From assembly GCF_018132105.1 (NCBI RefSeq), contig NZ_JWHL01000003.1, positions 124,001-188,000 on the forward strand: DNA of 64,000 nt, read 5' to 3'. The translations under genes and the position numbers were made by a program. Positions 34,114 to 41,968 of the stretch are shown piece by piece. Below the pieces are notes generated by a model, which made no database searches, was not told the origin of the DNA, and worked only from the letters and a program-made list of their open reading frames with translations. The stretch is from Methanocalculus chunghsingensis. Lineage in GTDB: Archaea > Halobacteriota > Methanomicrobia > Methanomicrobiales > Methanocorpusculaceae. Positions within the stretch are counted from its first letter, which is position 1; the number at the start of each line of letters is the position of its first letter.

Positions 34114-35577
34114 ATGGATCGGTGGGAGCACTTCCTGGTCATCGCCCGTGATCTCGGGGGCATCCTTCAGTTTATGGGGTTTGCCTCTTCGGCCCCTCTC
34201 CTGATCACAGCATATTATCATGAGTGGGATGTTCTTTTGGCGATGGCGATCGTTCCCATCATCTTCTTCCTCACCGGCAGTCTCCTCAGGAATGCGCCAC
34301 CTTCAAATAAGCAGGCACGCCTCTCGGTCTCTCTCAGCTCTGTTGCTGTTGTCTGGCTCTTTGCAGCTATTATCAGTGCACTCCCGTTCCATCTTACCCT
34401 TGGAATGCCCTATCTTGACTGTGTCTTTGAGGCGATGTCCGGATGGACGACGACAGGCCTGACCATGATCAGCGGACTGGATGATCTTCCAAAGACACTC
34501 CTCTTCTGGCGATCCTTTATGCAATGGATGGGGGGTATCGGGATTGTTGCTTTTACTATCGCAATGGTCAATCGATCTGGCCTTGTTCAGAGGGGGATGT
34601 ACCGATCTGAGGCACGATCAGAATCTTTCCTGCCAAGTGTCGTTGATACCGGGGTCTATATGTGGAAGATCTATATTGTTCTGACACTCGCCGGAATCGG
34701 ACTGTTGCTCTTCTCCGGTGTGGGTCTCTGGGATGCGCTGAATCTTTCTCTGGTCGCGATTGCGACAGGCGGGTTTACGATGTATGATGCAGGCATCGCA
34801 CATTATGATAATTATCTGATGGAGCTCCTTCTCATCCCCATCATGATCGCAGGCGCTCTTCCATTCAAACTCTATTTTCTCCTCTATTCAAAGAAAGTCT
34901 TTGCTTTTGTCCGGGATCGCCAGGCAGCCCTGCTCCTTGCCATCATTGGGTGCGGTCTTCTCTTCATCACATCTGATCTCATCTATCAGAGTGGTCTTCC
35001 TGCATCAGATGCCATTCGCTATGGTCTCTTTATGTCTGTATCTGCTGCGACGACCACAGGGTTTCAGAATACCGATCCCGGGCTCTGGCCGAGTGCGACC
35101 ATCCTCTTCCTCTCAGCCATGATGATCATCGGAGGGTCGGCCGGGAGTACTGCCGGGGGCCTGAAACTTGAACGTGTGGTGATCTGTTATGAGGGTCTCA
35201 TATGGTGGTTCCGGCGCATCTTCATCTCCGGACGGGCGATTATTCCTTTCCGGCATGAAGGCCGGAGCATACCGAAGATGGTCGCGGAGTATGAGGTCTC
35301 AAAGAATATGCTGATCATCGTACTCTACTTCATCATCGTCTTCGCAAGCACCGTATTCATCCTCTTTTTTGAAGGTGCTGGATATGATACCAGTCATGTC
35401 ATCTTCGATGTCATCACAGCCGCCTGCAATAATGGGATCAGTACCGGCCATGTCTCTGCGGATATGTCGGCAATCTCCAAGATCTTCTTTATTCTCCTGA
35501 TGTGGATCGGGCGGCTTGAGGTGATCCCGGTCATCGTTCTCTTCATGGGCATTCTGAAAGGATTTGACCGGGCGTGA
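34114..35577 (+). CDS. trkH: Potassium uptake protein TrkH
   Basis: The 487-residue integral membrane protein is the ion-conducting subunit of a Trk/Ktr potassium transporter. Its fourfold M-P-M repeats are visible, with selectivity-filter-like segments such as MSGWTTTGLTM, VAIATGGFTMYD, SAATTTGFQNTD and ACNNGISTG. The C-terminus ends in the conserved GRLEVIPV segment. No trkA (NAD-binding regulator) gene is adjacent; it must be elsewhere if used. Confidence 0.94.
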   Translation: MDRWEHFLVIARDLGGILQFMGFASSAPLLITAYYHEWDVLLAMAIVPIIFFLTGSLLRNAPPSNKQARLSVSLSSVAVVWLFAAIISALPFHLTLGMPYLDCVFEAMSGWTTTGLTMISGLDDLPKTLLFWRSFMQWMGGIGIVAFTIAMVNRSGLVQRGMYRSEARSESFLPSVVDTGVYMWKIYIVLTLAGIGLLLFSGVGLWDALNLSLVAIATGGFTMYDAGIAHYDNYLMELLLIPIMIAGALPFKLYFLLYSKKVFAFVRDRQAALLLAIIGCGLLFITSDLIYQSGLPASDAIRYGLFMSVSAATTTGFQNTDPGLWPSATILFLSAMMIIGGSAGSTAGGLKLERVVICYEGLIWWFRRIFISGRAIIPFRHEGRSIPKMVAEYEVSKNMLIIVLYFIIVFASTVFILFFEGAGYDTSHVIFDVITAACNNGISTGHVSADMSAISKIFFILLMWIGRLEVIPVIVLFMGILKGFDRA

Positions 35578-35640: not shown

Positions 35641-36456
35641 ATGAGACAGATTGCCCTCTATGGGAAGGGCGGTATCGGGAAATCGACGACTTCGGCGAAT
35701 CTCTCGGCTGCATGGGCTGAAAAAGGGCTGGATCTCCTTCAGATAGGATGTGATCCAAAACATGACAGCACCCGGATGCTGATGAACGGGCGTGTGATCC
35801 CGACGGTCCTCGATGTGATTCGTGAGAAGCAGAAGGACATATCCGTATCGGATATCGTCTTCACCGGATACCGGGGTGTCCGGTGTGTTGAAGCCGGAGG
35901 ACCTGAACCGGGAATCGGATGCGCTGGCAGGGGTATTATCGCGACGTTCCAGCTCCTTGAGAAGCTTGGGGCCCTCAAGGGCGATCTCATCGTTTATGAT
36001 GTCCTTGGTGATGTTGTCTGCGGTGGATTTGCAATGCCGATGAGAGAAGGATACGCAGAAGAGATCTATCTTGTCACATCAGGCGAGCTGATGTCCCTCT
36101 ATGCGGCAAATAATATCGCAAAGGCAATTGCCCGCCTCAGCGCCAATAAGAGGAGCAGTGTCCGACTTGGCGGAGTGATCGGCAATGGAAAGAATATTGT
36201 CGATGAGGAGGATCTCGTCAGTGAATTTGCTGAAAGTATCGGATCCCGCATGATTACATTCATCCCCAGATCCCCGACGGTCCAGCAGGCCGAGCTGAAC
36301 AAGAAGACGGTTGTCGAATATGCCCCGGAATCTTCTCAGGCGGAAGTGTACCGGCGCTCTGCTGATATTATTCTTCAGAATACGACATTCCATATCCCAA
36401 CACCACTCTCGATGGATGATCTTGAATCACTCGCATACCGATATCTCAAGGAATGA
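35641..36456 (+). CDS. NifH-like ATPase (nitrogenase-type iron protein)
   Basis: The 271-residue protein is a homodimeric MgATP-dependent reductase that passes electrons from its [4Fe-4S] cluster to a component-1 partner. It has P-loop GKGGIGKS (8-15), the cluster cysteines C94 (in GIGCAGRG) and C127 (in VVCGGF), and R97 in the segment that is ADP-ribosylated in some NifH. The switch segment reads CDPKHDST; the histidine is typical of BchL-type proteins, whereas NifH has alanine. ATG at 35641 begins the family sequence; the frame upstream is not NifH-like. It is followed by two NifD/NifK-like genes, so it probably serves them. Confidence 0.92.
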
Positions 36457-37465
36457 AGGGTGCACCTTAACCGGTGTCCTCTCTGTCACCTGTTTTTTGC
36501 AGGATGCCGTCACGGTGATACATGGTCCGACCGGCTGCACCCATCATAACGCCTCACTTCTCCATGCATCACTTGCCGAGAACGACTGTTTTGATATACC
36601 CCTCCTTGTATCAAGCAATGTCAGCGAAGAGGAGGTGATCTTCGGCGGTGAGGGGGCACTGATGCAGGCGATCCGCTCTGCAGAATCCTACAACCCATCC
36701 CTCATCTGTGTCGTCTCCACCTGTATCGCAGAGACCATCGGTGATGATACAGCCGCTGTCTGCAGGGAGTCACGGGGTGTTCCGGTTGTCCATATTCCGG
36801 GATCCGGGTTTCTTGGTGGTGGCTTCTCTGATGGAATACAGAATGCACTCATGAGCCTGATGGATCTCTCGTCCCCTGATCTCCATTCCACTGAGGAAGG
36901 TGTGATGATCGTCGGTGAGAAGAATCTTGAATATGAGGCGGAGGAGAACTATGCTGAAGTTGCCCGCCTCCTCTCCCTCCTCGATATCGACTCAGGCCTC
37001 AGGTTCGTCCGGAGGATGCCCGCGGGAGACTGTTCCCGGATCAGTTCCGCCCGCTACGCAATCCTGCGCGATCCCTCACTTGATCCGATAGGATCTGCTC
37101 TCTCTTCCCGTTTTGGAACCGAGATCATTTCTGGTTTCCCCCTCGGGCTGGAGGGGAGTCTCCGGTTCCTCCGTCAGGCAGGGGATATGGCGGGAATAGA
37201 CGCTCTTCCTGCGATCCGGGATGAGGAAGGGATGCAGGATGATCTTGTGGCGACATTTTCTGATCTTGCAGGTATTTCAGTCTCGATTAATACTTCTATG
37301 GCCGATCCTGGTGTTCTCCAGGTTGCACGTACGGTCATGGACTCACTCGGTATGGTAGAGGAAGACCCGGGAATCCCCCTCCCTCTCCCGTTTGATCCAC
37401 CCGTCGGAACCACCGGTGTCCGGAGGATGCTCCAGAGCTGGCGGAGGGGTATTTCACGTGCCTGA
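36416..37465 (+). CDS. Nitrogenase component 1-like protein, NifD/NifE-like
   Basis: The 349-residue protein resembles the catalytic-type subunit of nitrogenase-like reductases. Cysteines occur at the three P-cluster positions: C16 (GC.LTG), C41 (HGPTGC) and C103 (STC before IGDD). A further cysteine, C206 in [11 protein letters not shown], lies where NifD/NifE have their cofactor-binding cysteine (an inferred alignment). The protein is about 130 residues shorter than NifD and lacks its usual C-terminal part. The only usable start is ATG at 36416, which overlaps the NifH-like gene by 41 bases. The substrate is unknown. Confidence 0.83.
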
Positions 37466-38570
37466 ATGTATCAATCCCATCTGGCCATGTGCCCTGACAG
37501 GGGCTGTCGCGTTTCTTGCCGGTTATACCGGGATATCTGTGGTGATTCACGGGTCGAGCGGCTGTTATTATTATCCAAAATCCCTCATCAGAACCCCTCT
37601 CTTCGGTTCGTTCATTCTGCACGATGAGGTCGTCTTCGGAACCGGAGAACGGCTTCGATCAGTTGTTGCAGAGGTTTCAAAAAGGGGGGGGCGGGTCGCG
37701 GTTGTCAACTCCTGTGTTCCTGCCCTGATGGGTGAGGATCTCGCCCCGTATCTTGATGGGTATTCTGCTCTCTTCGTTGATGCACCAGGATTTCTAGGGG
37801 GGGTCGAGACAGGCTATCGTATCGCCGGAGAGACGCTGATGGGAGAGGCGGCAATAACCGGAGATGGAGCGAATATCGGGGGTGTCTGCCTTCTTGATCC
37901 CTTCTGGCGGGGTAATCTGCATGAAGCAAGGAGAATGCTTGCACGTGCCGGTATTCCCGTCGGGACAGTTGTCGCAGCTGATCATATTAAGGCTGTCTCT
38001 CATGCCTCCCCTCTGACGGTGATGGTCAATCCTGATTATCCCGCGATTATTGGCGAGGATTCCGGGTCACTCCTCGGCATATCATCATGCAGCGATACGA
38101 TCATGCGGGTTTCGGAGAGGGTACCCGGTGCGGATCCCTCCCCTCTTCTTGATGAATGCAGACTTGCTGAGGAGCGTGCTATCACCGCCTGTGAGAAATA
38201 TCTGAGGCGGCACGATCCCCCGGTTGCCGCCATCGCCGCACAGGCAGGATACGCTTCGTTCTTTGGTGAAATCCTGACAACGTATCTTGGAGCCGACTCT
38301 CCGCTCATCCTTCCAAGAAATGACTCTTCTGGTGTGGCTGTCACGGATTATGCCACAATCGCCGATGCTCTCTCCTCTGATGAATATACGCTTATCCTTG
38401 GATCAAGCTATGAGCATCAGATGCAGCCCTGTGCAGCATTCGTTGGTATCACCCCTCCACAGAGGGGAAGGGTGATCCTTGGAAGCCCGCCCCTTGCAGG
38501 TAGTGAAGGGATGCTCAACGGGGTTGAGATGATCCTTAACGCCTGCATGGACCGGAAGAAAAAAGTCTGA
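37458..38570 (+). CDS. Nitrogenase component 1-like protein, NifK/NifN-like
   Basis: The 370-residue protein is the likely partner of the preceding NifD-like protein. The three P-cluster-position cysteines are C11 (WPCALTGA), C36 (HGSSGC) and C86 (VVNSC before MGEDL), giving with the other subunit a full set of six. HGSSGCYYYP matches the NifK pattern HGSQGC. It starts at GTG 37458 with GGAGGGG about nine bases upstream and overlaps the previous gene by 8 bases. It is the last gene of the operon; a hairpin follows. Confidence 0.83.
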   Translation: MPECINPIWPCALTGAVAFLAGYTGISVVIHGSSGCYYYPKSLIRTPLFGSFILHDEVVFGTGERLRSVVAEVSKRGGRVAVVNSCVPALMGEDLAPYLDGYSALFVDAPGFLGGVETGYRIAGETLMGEAAITGDGANIGGVCLLDPFWRGNLHEARRMLARAGIPVGTVVAADHIKAVSHASPLTVMVNPDYPAIIGEDSGSLLGISSCSDTIMRVSERVPGADPSPLLDECRLAEERAITACEKYLRRHDPPVAAIAAQAGYASFFGEILTTYLGADSPLILPRNDSSGVAVTDYATIADALSSDEYTLILGSSYEHQMQPCAAFVGITPPQRGRVILGSPPLAGSEGMLNGVEMILNACMDRKKKV

Positions 38571-38626: not shown

Positions 38627-39502
38627 TCAGCCGTGAAGCCAGTAGTTGACCTTGTCAGGGTTGGCTGCAATCCATGCCTGGGCGGCTTCCTTGTCAGGGA
38701 CACCGTCTTCAATGGCAGTCATAACTTCTGCAATGTCATCGCCGGTCCACTCGAACCGTTCGATGATGGCATATGCTTCAGGCTGGTCCTCTTTGAGTCC
38801 GAGACGGGCGATAGTGACGACATCTTCAGCATCGCCATAGACACCCTTTGGATCATCAAGGAACTTTAGGTCCCAGCGGCCGAACTTCCAGTGTGGAGCC
38901 CATCCGGTGACGACGACCCACTCCTCGCTGTTGATGGCTGATCGAAGTTCAGCTGCCATGCCTGCACCGCTGCTTGCAACAAGCTCATAATCGAGATCGT
39001 ACTCTTCAATGGCGTTCTCTGTTGCAGTCATAATTCCTGCGCCAGGGTCGATTCCGATGATCTTTCCATCAAAGTTCTCCACAACGCCGTTCATCTCCTC
39101 AATGGAGTCGATAGTGACGTATGCAGGTACGACAAGACCGATACGTGCTTCTCCTTTGATATTCTCGTTTACGTAGTCGAGATCATCTCCATACTCCTCC
39201 CAGTATGTTGCGTGGGTGAAGGGGAGCCATGCTGTCGTGGTGACGTCAATATCGCCCCGGGCAAGACCTGCATAGAGTGGCCCTGCATCCACACCCATGA
39301 TCGTTACATCATATCCTGCTTCTTCAAGGACCTCTCCGAGGACATGTGAACTGGCAATGGCACAGTCCCAGGTGACCAGCCCGATGGTAATCTCTTTTGC
39401 AGGCTCAGCAGGTGTCTCATCAACACATCCTGTTACAAGGACTGCTGAGAAGAGTATAAGCCCTATGATAAGGGGAATAAATGTTCGTTTTGTAATCATC
39501 AT
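38627..39502 (-). CDS. opuAC: Glycine betaine ABC transporter, substrate-binding lipoprotein
   Basis: The protein of about 291 residues captures compatible solutes outside the membrane for the OpuA/ProU-type transporter. A signal peptide with hydrophobic core ends in a lipobox-like LVTGC, so it is probably membrane-anchored. The mature part has the OpuAC fold, with aromatic residues for a betaine cage (such as TWDCA, TAWLPFTH, GWAPHWKF). ATGs at 39502 and 39499 both fit the GGTGA site upstream; ATG at 39514 is also possible. A TATA box 60-80 bases upstream suggests its own promoter in addition to the operon's. Confidence 0.93.
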   Translation of the reverse strand: MMITKRTFIPLIIGLILFSAVLVTGCVDETPAEPAKEITIGLVTWDCAIASSHVLGEVLEEAGYDVTIMGVDAGPLYAGLARGDIDVTTTAWLPFTHATYWEEYGDDLDYVNENIKGEARIGLVVPAYVTIDSIEEMNGVVENFDGKIIGIDPGAGIMTATENAIEEYDLDYELVASSGAGMAAELRSAINSEEWVVVTGWAPHWKFGRWDLKFLDDPKGVYGDAEDVVTIARLGLKEDQPEAYAIIERFEWTGDDIAEVMTAIEDGVPDKEAAQAWIAANPDKVNYWLHG

Positions 39503-39570
39503 TTCACCATCCATCCCGGTTCATTCGTTGGGATAAATAAAAGTCTATAGAGACCGATACTGCTTTTGAG

Positions 39571-39585
39571 ATTAATATATTAAAA
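39571..39585 (-). promoter_or_regulatory. TATA box upstream of the betaine-binding protein gene
   Basis: On the minus strand the sequence reads TTTTAATATATTAAT in the 101-base gap after the permease gene. A second promoter here would raise binding-protein levels above those of the membrane subunits, which is common for ABC importers. Confidence 0.5.
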
Positions 39586-39603
39586 AAGTTGGTGGGTATC
39601 TTT

Positions 39604-40449
39604 TTATTTGATGAGGTTCTGGGTGATCCGATCAAGGATAATGGCGATGATGACAATGGCAAGTCCTGCCTCAAACCCCATCGCGATATTAACCCTCTGA
39701 ATCCCGACGAGAACCTGGTATCCCAGACCTCCTGCGCCGATCATCGATGCGATGACGACCATCGAGAGGGCGAGCATGATACACTGGTTCACACCTGCCA
39801 TGATCGTCGGGAGTGCCACAGGCAGCTGCACCTTGATCAGTTTCTGGCGGGGAGTGGCACCGAAGGCATCGGAGACCTCGATCAGTTCGGTTGGAATCTG
39901 ACGAATACCGAGATTTGTCAGCCTGATTGCAGGCGGCATCGCAAAGACGACTGTTGCAATCATACCCGGAACATTACCGAGACTGAAGAAGATAACTGCC
40001 GGAACGAGATACACGAACGCCGGCATCGTCTGCATAAAGTCGAGGAGAACCCTGACAACAGCATTGATGGAGTCACTGTTTGCCGCAAGGATGCCGATCG
40101 GTATCCCGATAAGCAGAGCAATAATGGTTGATGCAAGGACGAGTGCGAGTGTCATCATCGCATGATCCCAGAGCTGAAGATTCCATATCAGGAGCAGTCC
40201 GATAAAGCTGAGTATTGCTAGTTTGTGATCCTTCCGTGTGACAAAATAGACGATGATCGCAAGAATCGGGATGAAGATCTCCGGTGGCAGGAACATAAGA
40301 ATTTCCTGAAATCCGTTTAAGAGGTACCGTAGTACTGCGGTAATTCCATCAAGGAGCCACCCGAGATTGGCCTCAATCCAGTCGACGAGATCTGATACGA
40401 ATGCCCCGACAGGGATCTTCGGGAGATCAATTCCAATATTAAGCGACAA
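39604..40449 (-). CDS. opuAB: Glycine betaine ABC transporter, permease
   Basis: The 281-residue membrane permease has an N-terminal hydrophilic stretch, then about six transmembrane segments and the ABC-permease EAA-like loop (DAFGATPRQKLIKVQLPVALP). This loop docks on the ATPase. The start is uncertain: TTG at 40449 has AAAGGAGAG at a good distance, whereas the TTG at 40473 and GTG at 40458 do not. The start overlaps the ATPase gene by 11 bases. The annotated 5' end therefore rests on the ribosome binding site. Confidence 0.9.
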   Translation of the reverse strand: MSLNIGIDLPKIPVGAFVSDLVDWIEANLGWLLDGITAVLRYLLNGFQEILMFLPPEIFIPILAIIVYFVTRKDHKLAILSFIGLLLIWNLQLWDHAMMTLALVLASTIIALLIGIPIGILAANSDSINAVVRVLLDFMQTMPAFVYLVPAVIFFSLGNVPGMIATVVFAMPPAIRLTNLGIRQIPTELIEVSDAFGATPRQKLIKVQLPVALPTIMAGVNQCIMLALSMVVIASMIGAGGLGYQVLVGIQRVNIAMGFEAGLAIVIIAIILDRITQNLIK

Positions 40450-41659
40450 TTGGTTCACTCTCCTTTCGGGCAAGTGCAGAGAGGACCGATCCTCTCACAA
40501 TGATCCCCTTGAGTCTGTTATCATCATCCATCACCGCAAGCGGAAGTTTTGCTTCAGCAATCATCGGAATGATATCTGCAAGCGGTGTAGTCAGATGAAC
40601 CTGTGGAACGTCAGTTGTGACTATCCCTTCGAGGGTTGTATGATCATTCTTCACCGCCTCGACGACATCGTCGATGGTTACTATCCCTTTCAGAATACGG
40701 TGCTGTGTCACCACAAAGAGGTTTGAGATCCCATATTCTTTCATCAGCCTGGCAGCCAGGCGTGGACCGCTTTTGCAGGAGATGATCGGATCAGCCTTCT
40801 TCATCACATCCTGTGCTGTCAGTACCCGGGTCATATCAACATCGGCGACGAAACGCTCAACATATTCATTGCTGGGGTTCATCAGGATCTCTTCAGCAGT
40901 TCCGATCTGAATGATCTTTCCATCCTTCATGAGTGCGATCCGGCTTCCGACCTTCAGGGCTTCATCAAGATCATGGGTGACAAAGATGATCGTCTTGCTC
41001 AGCCTTTGCTGGAGATCTATCAGCTCGTCCTGCATATCACGACGGATAAGTGGATCAAGGGCACTGAATGCCTCATCCATCAGGAGAATGTCTGCATCGC
41101 TTGCGAGTGCGCGTGCAAGGCCCACCCGCTGCTTCATTCCTCCTGAGAGCTGATCCGGCATGCTCTCCTCATAGCCGGCAAGTCCAACGAGCTTGATCGC
41201 CTCTGCGGCTTTTGTATGCCGCTCTGGAATGTCAATCCCCTGGATCTCAAGACCGAAGGCGACGTTATCGATGATCGTCCGGTGCGGCAGCAGGGCAAAG
41301 TTCTGAAAGATCATTCCGAGCTGCTGCCTGCGAATCTTCCGCATCTCCTCATCGTCCATTCCGACGATATCTCTTCCATTTATGATGATGCTTCCCTCAG
41401 TCGGCTCGATAAGACGGTTTAAGCATCGGAGAAGAGTTGACTTTCCACATCCTGAAAGCCCCATTAAGACGAATATCTCACCTTTGTATACCTCAAAAGA
41501 GTTATTGTCAAGACCTACTGTCAGCCCGGTCTTTTCAAAGATCTCCGGCTTTTTTTTCCCTTCTTTCAGCATCTGAACTCCTTTTTCGGGTTTACTGCCA
41601 AAAACCTTGTACAAATTTTTTACTTCTATCTGTATCTCCGGGGTTTCTTCTTCGTCCAT
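40439..41659 (-). CDS. opuAA: Glycine betaine ABC transporter, ATP-binding protein
   Basis: The 406-residue ATPase powers betaine uptake. It has Walker A GLSGCGKST, the signature LSGGMKQRVGLARAL and Walker B LLMDEAFSALDP. The C-terminal third carries two CBS domains, which in OpuA sense ionic strength and control transport. ATG at 41659 has GGAGG seven bases upstream and starts the family sequence; the longer frame to 41707 does not. It is first in the opuAA-AB-AC operon. Confidence 0.95.
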   Translation of the reverse strand: MDEEETPEIQIEVKNLYKVFGSKPEKGVQMLKEGKKKPEIFEKTGLTVGLDNNSFEVYKGEIFVLMGLSGCGKSTLLRCLNRLIEPTEGSIIINGRDIVGMDDEEMRKIRRQQLGMIFQNFALLPHRTIIDNVAFGLEIQGIDIPERHTKAAEAIKLVGLAGYEESMPDQLSGGMKQRVGLARALASDADILLMDEAFSALDPLIRRDMQDELIDLQQRLSKTIIFVTHDLDEALKVGSRIALMKDGKIIQIGTAEEILMNPSNEYVERFVADVDMTRVLTAQDVMKKADPIISCKSGPRLAARLMKEYGISNLFVVTQHRILKGIVTIDDVVEAVKNDHTTLEGIVTTDVPQVHLTTPLADIIPMIAEAKLPLAVMDDDNRLKGIIVRGSVLSALARKESEPIVA

Positions 41660-41968
41660 AGTAGTGCCTCCATAAATGTCTTCTTCCGGTGGGTACAGTG
41701 GTTTCACCCTCCCTCCGGAACTGAATCTGGATGATAAAATAATATGTTCTTATGGCTTCTGTCTCAAAAACCTTCCTGCCTTAGTACCCTTGTATAAATC
41801 CCTAATAGCTGTTTGGGTCATGAAATGATTCTATTCGTGAGGTAATATTGTAAAAAACCAGTCTTCGCCTGAGGATCTTCTGCAGCCCGGGCGATAGCAG
41901 CCTTTCTGTCGGATTGAAACGGGTATTGACAAAGGCTTTAGGGTTATGGTGCTTATATTGATATCAAT
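41660..41968. other. Intergenic region between opuAA and a membrane FKBP-like gene
   Basis: This 309-base divergent region holds no gene that I can see. On the minus strand, TTTATACA at about 41792-41799 and TATTTTATC-like sequence near 41735-41745 are possible TATA boxes for opuAA. A GGATTGAAAC sequence at 41911-41920 resembles the end of a CRISPR repeat but occurs only once. A G+C-rich patch lies near 41875-41900 without an obvious structure. Confidence 0.5.

Follow-up and report, generated by a model that had tools for sequence, protein, structure and literature searches.

A nitrogenase-like gene pair overlapping cfbC in Methanomicrobiales and its possible role as a CfbC-driven reductase

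Which reaction might be served by a NifH-type ATPase whose gene overlaps that of one nitrogenase-like subunit, which in turn overlaps that of a second? The question is raised by a locus of Methanocalculus chunghsingensis, an organism of the order Methanomicrobiales with a genome of 2.13 Mb that is 99.5% complete. Among hydrogenotrophic methanogens this order is a major group, methane formation depends centrally on the synthesis of F430, and CfbC is the nitrogenase-type reductase component required to make F430. In the window, that is, the whole stretch of 64,000 nucleotides analysed here, three genes lie on the forward strand: H (35641..36456, 271 aa), a cfbC-type NifH ATPase/reductase; D (36416..37465, 349 aa), a NifE/NifD-like subunit; and K (37458..38570, 370 aa, with a GTG start), a NifK/NifN-like subunit. 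An earlier note on this DNA had recognised three reading frames here and described both partners as short, which we confirm, and had proposed that together they form a new, self-contained reductase system, which our results do not bear out.

H and D share 41 nt (36416..36456) and D and K 8 nt (37458..37465), both on the forward strand. Such overlaps recur in 93 of 98 loci for H and D and in 77 of 83 for D and K, so that translation of the three genes is probably coupled. Some genomes of the Methanoculleus type have K divergent from H-D and about 2 kb away, as at L148:3803-9084, where K lies on the opposite strand. In some genomes K had been reported to contain stops; in three of them, which were read through, these proved to be natural stops at the C-terminus. 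Upstream of H lies a TrkH-type K+ transporter gene (34114..35577, +; PF02386), whose place is conserved in 40 of the 80 related loci and which has no evident functional link to the three genes. The other conserved neighbours of related loci, namely uridine-kinase-like, F420H2-oxidase-like, LeuBCD-like and MutS/MutL genes, likewise form no coherent pathway with it, and none in the loci compared points to a substrate for D and K. On the other side, convergent with the locus, the window carries an ordinary operon for a glycine-betaine-type ABC transporter (38627-41707, -; PF04069, PF00528, PF00005).

H is the only NifH-type protein of the genome

H belongs to the NifH family (PF00142, 364 bits) and passes the curated CfbC model NF033200 with 413.4 bits against a cut-off of 402, as do the CfbC proteins that other members of the phylum encode in their cfb clusters, while its 382 bits with the NifH model lie under that model's own cut-off. 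The CfbC cut-off is passed in 77 of the 80 Methanomicrobiales genomes, all at least 95% complete, that were surveyed for NifH and CfbC, and 56 of these 80 have exactly one NifH-type gene (E<=1e-40). Both cysteines of the [4Fe-4S] cluster, already picked out in the earlier note, are conserved across the order, C94 in 88 of 89 sequences and C127 in 89 of 89. The CDPKHDST switch, which had been likened to that of BchL, is not diagnostic, for both His and Arg occur at that place among members of the order. In phylogenetic trees the H proteins of Methanomicrobiales form a clade of their own (100/100), apart from the CfbC that another family of the phylum encodes in its cfb clusters, and a joint clade of the two is not rejected (p-AU 0.25). 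Judged by its sequence, H is CfbC.

In the whole genome, H is the one NifH-type gene, two further matches being weak and below the cut-off. The genome has three PF00148 genes, which are D, K and, on a different contig, a true cfbD; the latter, identified by its model, stands in a gene run that reads cfbA, cfbE, cfbD, cfbB (the other three names having been given from inspection of the sequences) and contains no cfbC. CfbD is present in one copy in every genome of the order among those listed. The separate cfbD that one would expect beside a novel system thus exists, while the separate cfbC does not, and the idea that H, D and K stand alone next to an independent CfbC has to be rejected. Since H is the sole NifH-type gene and CfbD is encoded once, elsewhere, H must also serve CfbD; we infer that the same CfbC is common to CfbD and the D/K pair.

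D and K compared with known nitrogenase-like proteins

Both partners fall in PF00148, D with 154 bits and K with 78 against a Pfam gathering score of 28.6, and no NCBIfam equivalog model comes near its cut-off for either, which agrees with their having been taken for an unassigned nitrogenase-like pair. The CfbD model TIGR03282, with a cut-off of 268.4, gives 52.6 bits for D and 22.7 for K; the nifE model gives 77 bits against 505, and the Bch models at most 47 against cut-offs of at least 324. When profiles are compared, the closest matches of D are a NifE-like family encoded by a single gene, the K-like proteins of group IV and NifE, the last being its best alignment among Nif subunits, with NifE-like sequence over about 300 residues; the closest matches of K are the K-like proteins of group IV. 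In the tree, in which the Bch rows are long branches that we do not trust, D and K constitute two separate lineages on long stems, each with 100% support and each outside Nif, CfbD and group IV. The backbone of the deep tree is unresolved, and the union of D and K in one clade is not rejected (p-AU 0.48). On this sequence evidence, neither D nor K is a CfbD, NifDK, NifEN, Bch or Mar/Isr protein. The literature searched contains no paper on the pair, which appears to be uncharacterised.

The three cysteines at P-cluster positions that the earlier note had seen in each partner are borne out across some 90 sequences of the order: C16, C41 and C103 of D are Cys in 88-90 of 91, invariant apart from gaps, and C11, C36 and C86 of K in 97 of 97, where C4 is also invariant. 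In alignments with NifDK, all six fall on its P-cluster cysteines. The cofactor cysteine that had been proposed for D, C206, must be discarded, since only 7 of 91 sequences have Cys there and the residue lies about 12 positions before the true site. The position of NifD C275 and NifE C250 is a gap in D beside Arg218, invariant in 91 of 91, in the motif Leu-Arg-(Glu/Asp), and no D sequence of the alignment has a Cys at the NifD Cys275 site. AlphaFold models suggest that both proteins would fold as component-1 subunits. That of K (pLDDT 91.2) matches whole NifK, VnfK and NifN chains with TM of about 0.8, whereas that of D (pLDDT 86.8) fits BchB, NifE and NifD less fully (TM 0.6-0.74), in keeping with its reduced third domain, and has chains of DPOR as its top PDB matches.

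How, then, does the locus compare with the systems already known? With CfbCD it shares its H, the length of D and K, which is similar to that of CfbD, and the lack of a nitrogenase cofactor site; yet CfbD is encoded elsewhere as a single protein that forms a homodimer and holds two of the three cluster cysteines, whereas D and K are two genes whose products hold three each. The suggestion that the pair differs from CfbD is thereby upheld. With NifDK and NifEN it shares the fold, the six cysteines as in NifDK and the NifE-like sequence of D, but D is shortened, has no cofactor cysteine and scores far below the nifE and nifD cut-offs. The genome, with its three PF00148 genes, falls short of the minimum nitrogenase set nifHDKENB, and the locus is, as had been observed, free of nifB, nifE and nifN, nifB being on another contig. 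BchNB and BchYZ are likewise heteromeric, NifH-driven reductases without a metal cofactor at the active site, and the predicted model of D resembles them; their sequences, however, are not close to D and K, and DPOR binds its cluster by three Cys and one Asp, the latter in BchB, where K has Cys. In MarHDK and IsrHDK of group IV the P-cluster cysteines are present and the K-like subunits provide the best profile match to K. MarD, however, holds an [8Fe-9S-C] cluster by Cys270 and His429 (PMC12552129), and D has no equivalent of this Cys; nor is there, among the neighbours examined, a radical-SAM partner gene beside the locus, unlike in Mar and Isr. The same general cysteine pattern as in D and K is found in the NifEN-like pairs of several phyla that have 3+3 Cys and no ligands for FeMoco, the 'yellow' clades of Dos Santos et al. 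2012 (PMC3464626). The Methanocorpusculum pair Mlab_1040/1039 described in the same work shows a 2+1 pattern and is therefore a different pair.

Two further kinds of nitrogenase-like genes were encountered in other genomes. The single-gene NifE-like family mentioned above has no K partner (L133:3486-4670(-), L134:3930-5159(-), L141:3858-5165(-), L144:3996-5183(-), L146:4504-5676(+)), keeps the three P-cluster cysteines as well as the cofactor cysteine, and could possibly be a homomeric L-cluster protein; it is absent from the host genome and lies a few kb from cfbD in L134 and L141. In five genomes (G332, G408, G053, G425 and G432), NifH-type matches fall within long reading frames (729-768 aa), which are consistent with fused NifH-NifE genes.

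Distribution of the pair and its natural loss

Among the sampled genomes of the phylum, the D and K lineages are found only in Methanomicrobiales. K is present in 81 of 83 sampled genomes of the order and absent from all 310 other genomes sampled in the phylum; the lowest score within the order is 389 bits, and the highest-scoring match below it, of whatever kind, is a NifE-like protein with 114 bits. In a scan of 84,980 species 137 relatives were retrieved, and the best 80 of these 137 have titles consistent with Methanomicrobiales. Of 61 near relatives, 57 have D, and the remaining four are drafts that are 73-91% complete. In a published comparison that included Methanospirillum hungatei JF-1, D and K are absent from the signature genes of the order (PMC2686161).

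Three near-complete genomes of the order (G188, G405 and G432) have neither D nor K while retaining CfbC and CfbD. In G188, TrkH, H and the usual downstream gene follow one another, D and K being missing, and CfbD is the sole PF00148 gene; in G405 and G432, which belong to another genus, the usual downstream gene directly follows H, and a direct search of G405 for K found no member of the K family. Because these genomes form one group within the H tree (97/94), the pair was likely lost once in their lineage. Their retention of CfbC and CfbD implies that D and K are dispensable for the synthesis of F430, and we reject as unlikely, on this genomic evidence, the notion that the pair is required for it.

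Possible functions of D and K

In functional terms, these observations create a puzzle: what would an order of methanogens do with a second partner for the CfbC on which its F430 synthesis depends? A reductase role is plausible from sequence features, and we lean, at a little under even chances, towards D and K being a heteromeric reductase that uses CfbC as its ATP-driven electron donor. The fuller description, a nitrogenase-family heteromer with complete 3+3 ligation of a P-cluster, no metal cofactor at the active site and a Fe protein shared with F430 synthesis, carrying out a reduction specific to Methanomicrobiales, is put forward more tentatively. What we infer here extends to the assembly of D with K, the use of CfbC, the type of cluster, the dependence on ATP, the redox role and the class of substrate. 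D and K would assemble as a heteromer of the component-1 type, probably D2K2, on which CfbC, made from the same overlapping genes, would dock as it does on CfbD and hydrolyse ATP. The [4Fe-4S] cluster of CfbC would hand its electrons to an Fe-S centre resembling the P-cluster, which the six conserved cysteines would hold where D meets K. From this centre the electrons would reach an organic substrate in D, at the position where nitrogenase holds its cofactor; this site would be lined by the invariant Arg218 and by Glu/Asp219, and the reduction of the third domain would have opened it. A carboxylated tetrapyrrole related to F430 or to corrins would by analogy be the most likely substrate, since the known members without a cofactor, CfbD and Bch, reduce tetrapyrroles and the invariant Arg would suit a carboxylated ligand; the profile comparison, in which D and K come closest to NifE and group IV proteins and not to CfbD or Bch, argues against deducing a tetrapyrrole from relatedness. 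The reaction would be an accessory one, because some genomes without the pair keep CfbC and CfbD.

The same features can be read differently. With the P-cluster cysteines kept, the cofactor site lost and the third domain shortened, the relay could be exposed, and D and K might pass electrons in an ATP-driven manner to another protein, such as a corrinoid protein or the activation system of methyl-CoM reductase (MCR), having no small-molecule substrate of their own; we consider this unlikely, given that Arg218 and the many other invariant residues of D point to a specific site that has been retained, and that no candidate partner gene is linked to the locus. The resemblance of D to NifE suggests instead a scaffold or insertase of the NifEN kind that would carry or trim the [8Fe-9S-C] L-cluster made by NifB, for instance within the MCR activation complex, with CfbC in the place of NifH. 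NifB is indeed present in 60 of 60 genomes of the order, the host included, and MCR activation employs three L-like clusters (PMC12176620). This reading, which we hold to be rather improbable, has to face the missing equivalent of NifE C250 in D, the six cluster cysteines of the pair in place of 3+1, and the existence of other methanogens and of three genomes of the order, at least one with NifB, that do without D and K.

A role other than catalysis could also account for the short third domain of D. That D and K are merely accessory to CfbC, which they would store, stabilise or regulate for CfbD, would accord with the overlap of their genes with cfbC and with their dispensability, and seems quite doubtful to us, for a role outside redox chemistry would hardly account for the complete conservation of six cluster cysteines in about 90 sequences. 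Cobalamin synthesis offers yet another candidate, since the reduction of cobalt-precorrin-6A by CbiJ is, like the reaction of DPOR, the reduction of a double bond in a tetrapyrrole, and CbiJ is missing from 90 of 90 genomes of the order tested. That D and K replace this enzyme is nevertheless most improbable: CbiJ (PF02571) is missing as well from 147 of 147 sampled genomes of the phylum, whereas K is absent from the part of the phylum outside the order, so that the two distributions do not match and the substitution has been rejected. M. jannaschii has CbiJ, and in the sampled genomes of the phylum some other enzyme presumably performs the reduction.

Pairs with 3+3 cysteines and without FeMoco ligands being known already (PMC3464626), the cysteine pattern of D and K is not new in general. 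New, as far as the literature surveyed shows, are the lineage of D and K throughout an order, the link between it and the only CfbC, the shortened form of D and the natural losses. If a CfbC-driven reductase is indeed what D and K form, CfbC in Methanomicrobiales would constitute a power source common to two reductases, and the pair, long left unassigned, would be a nitrogenase-like system open to direct testing, with its cysteine pattern and likely donor known and with genomes naturally devoid of D and K for comparison. In evolutionary terms, D and K bear on the order in which the P-cluster and the cofactor were gained or lost in the evolution of nitrogenase.
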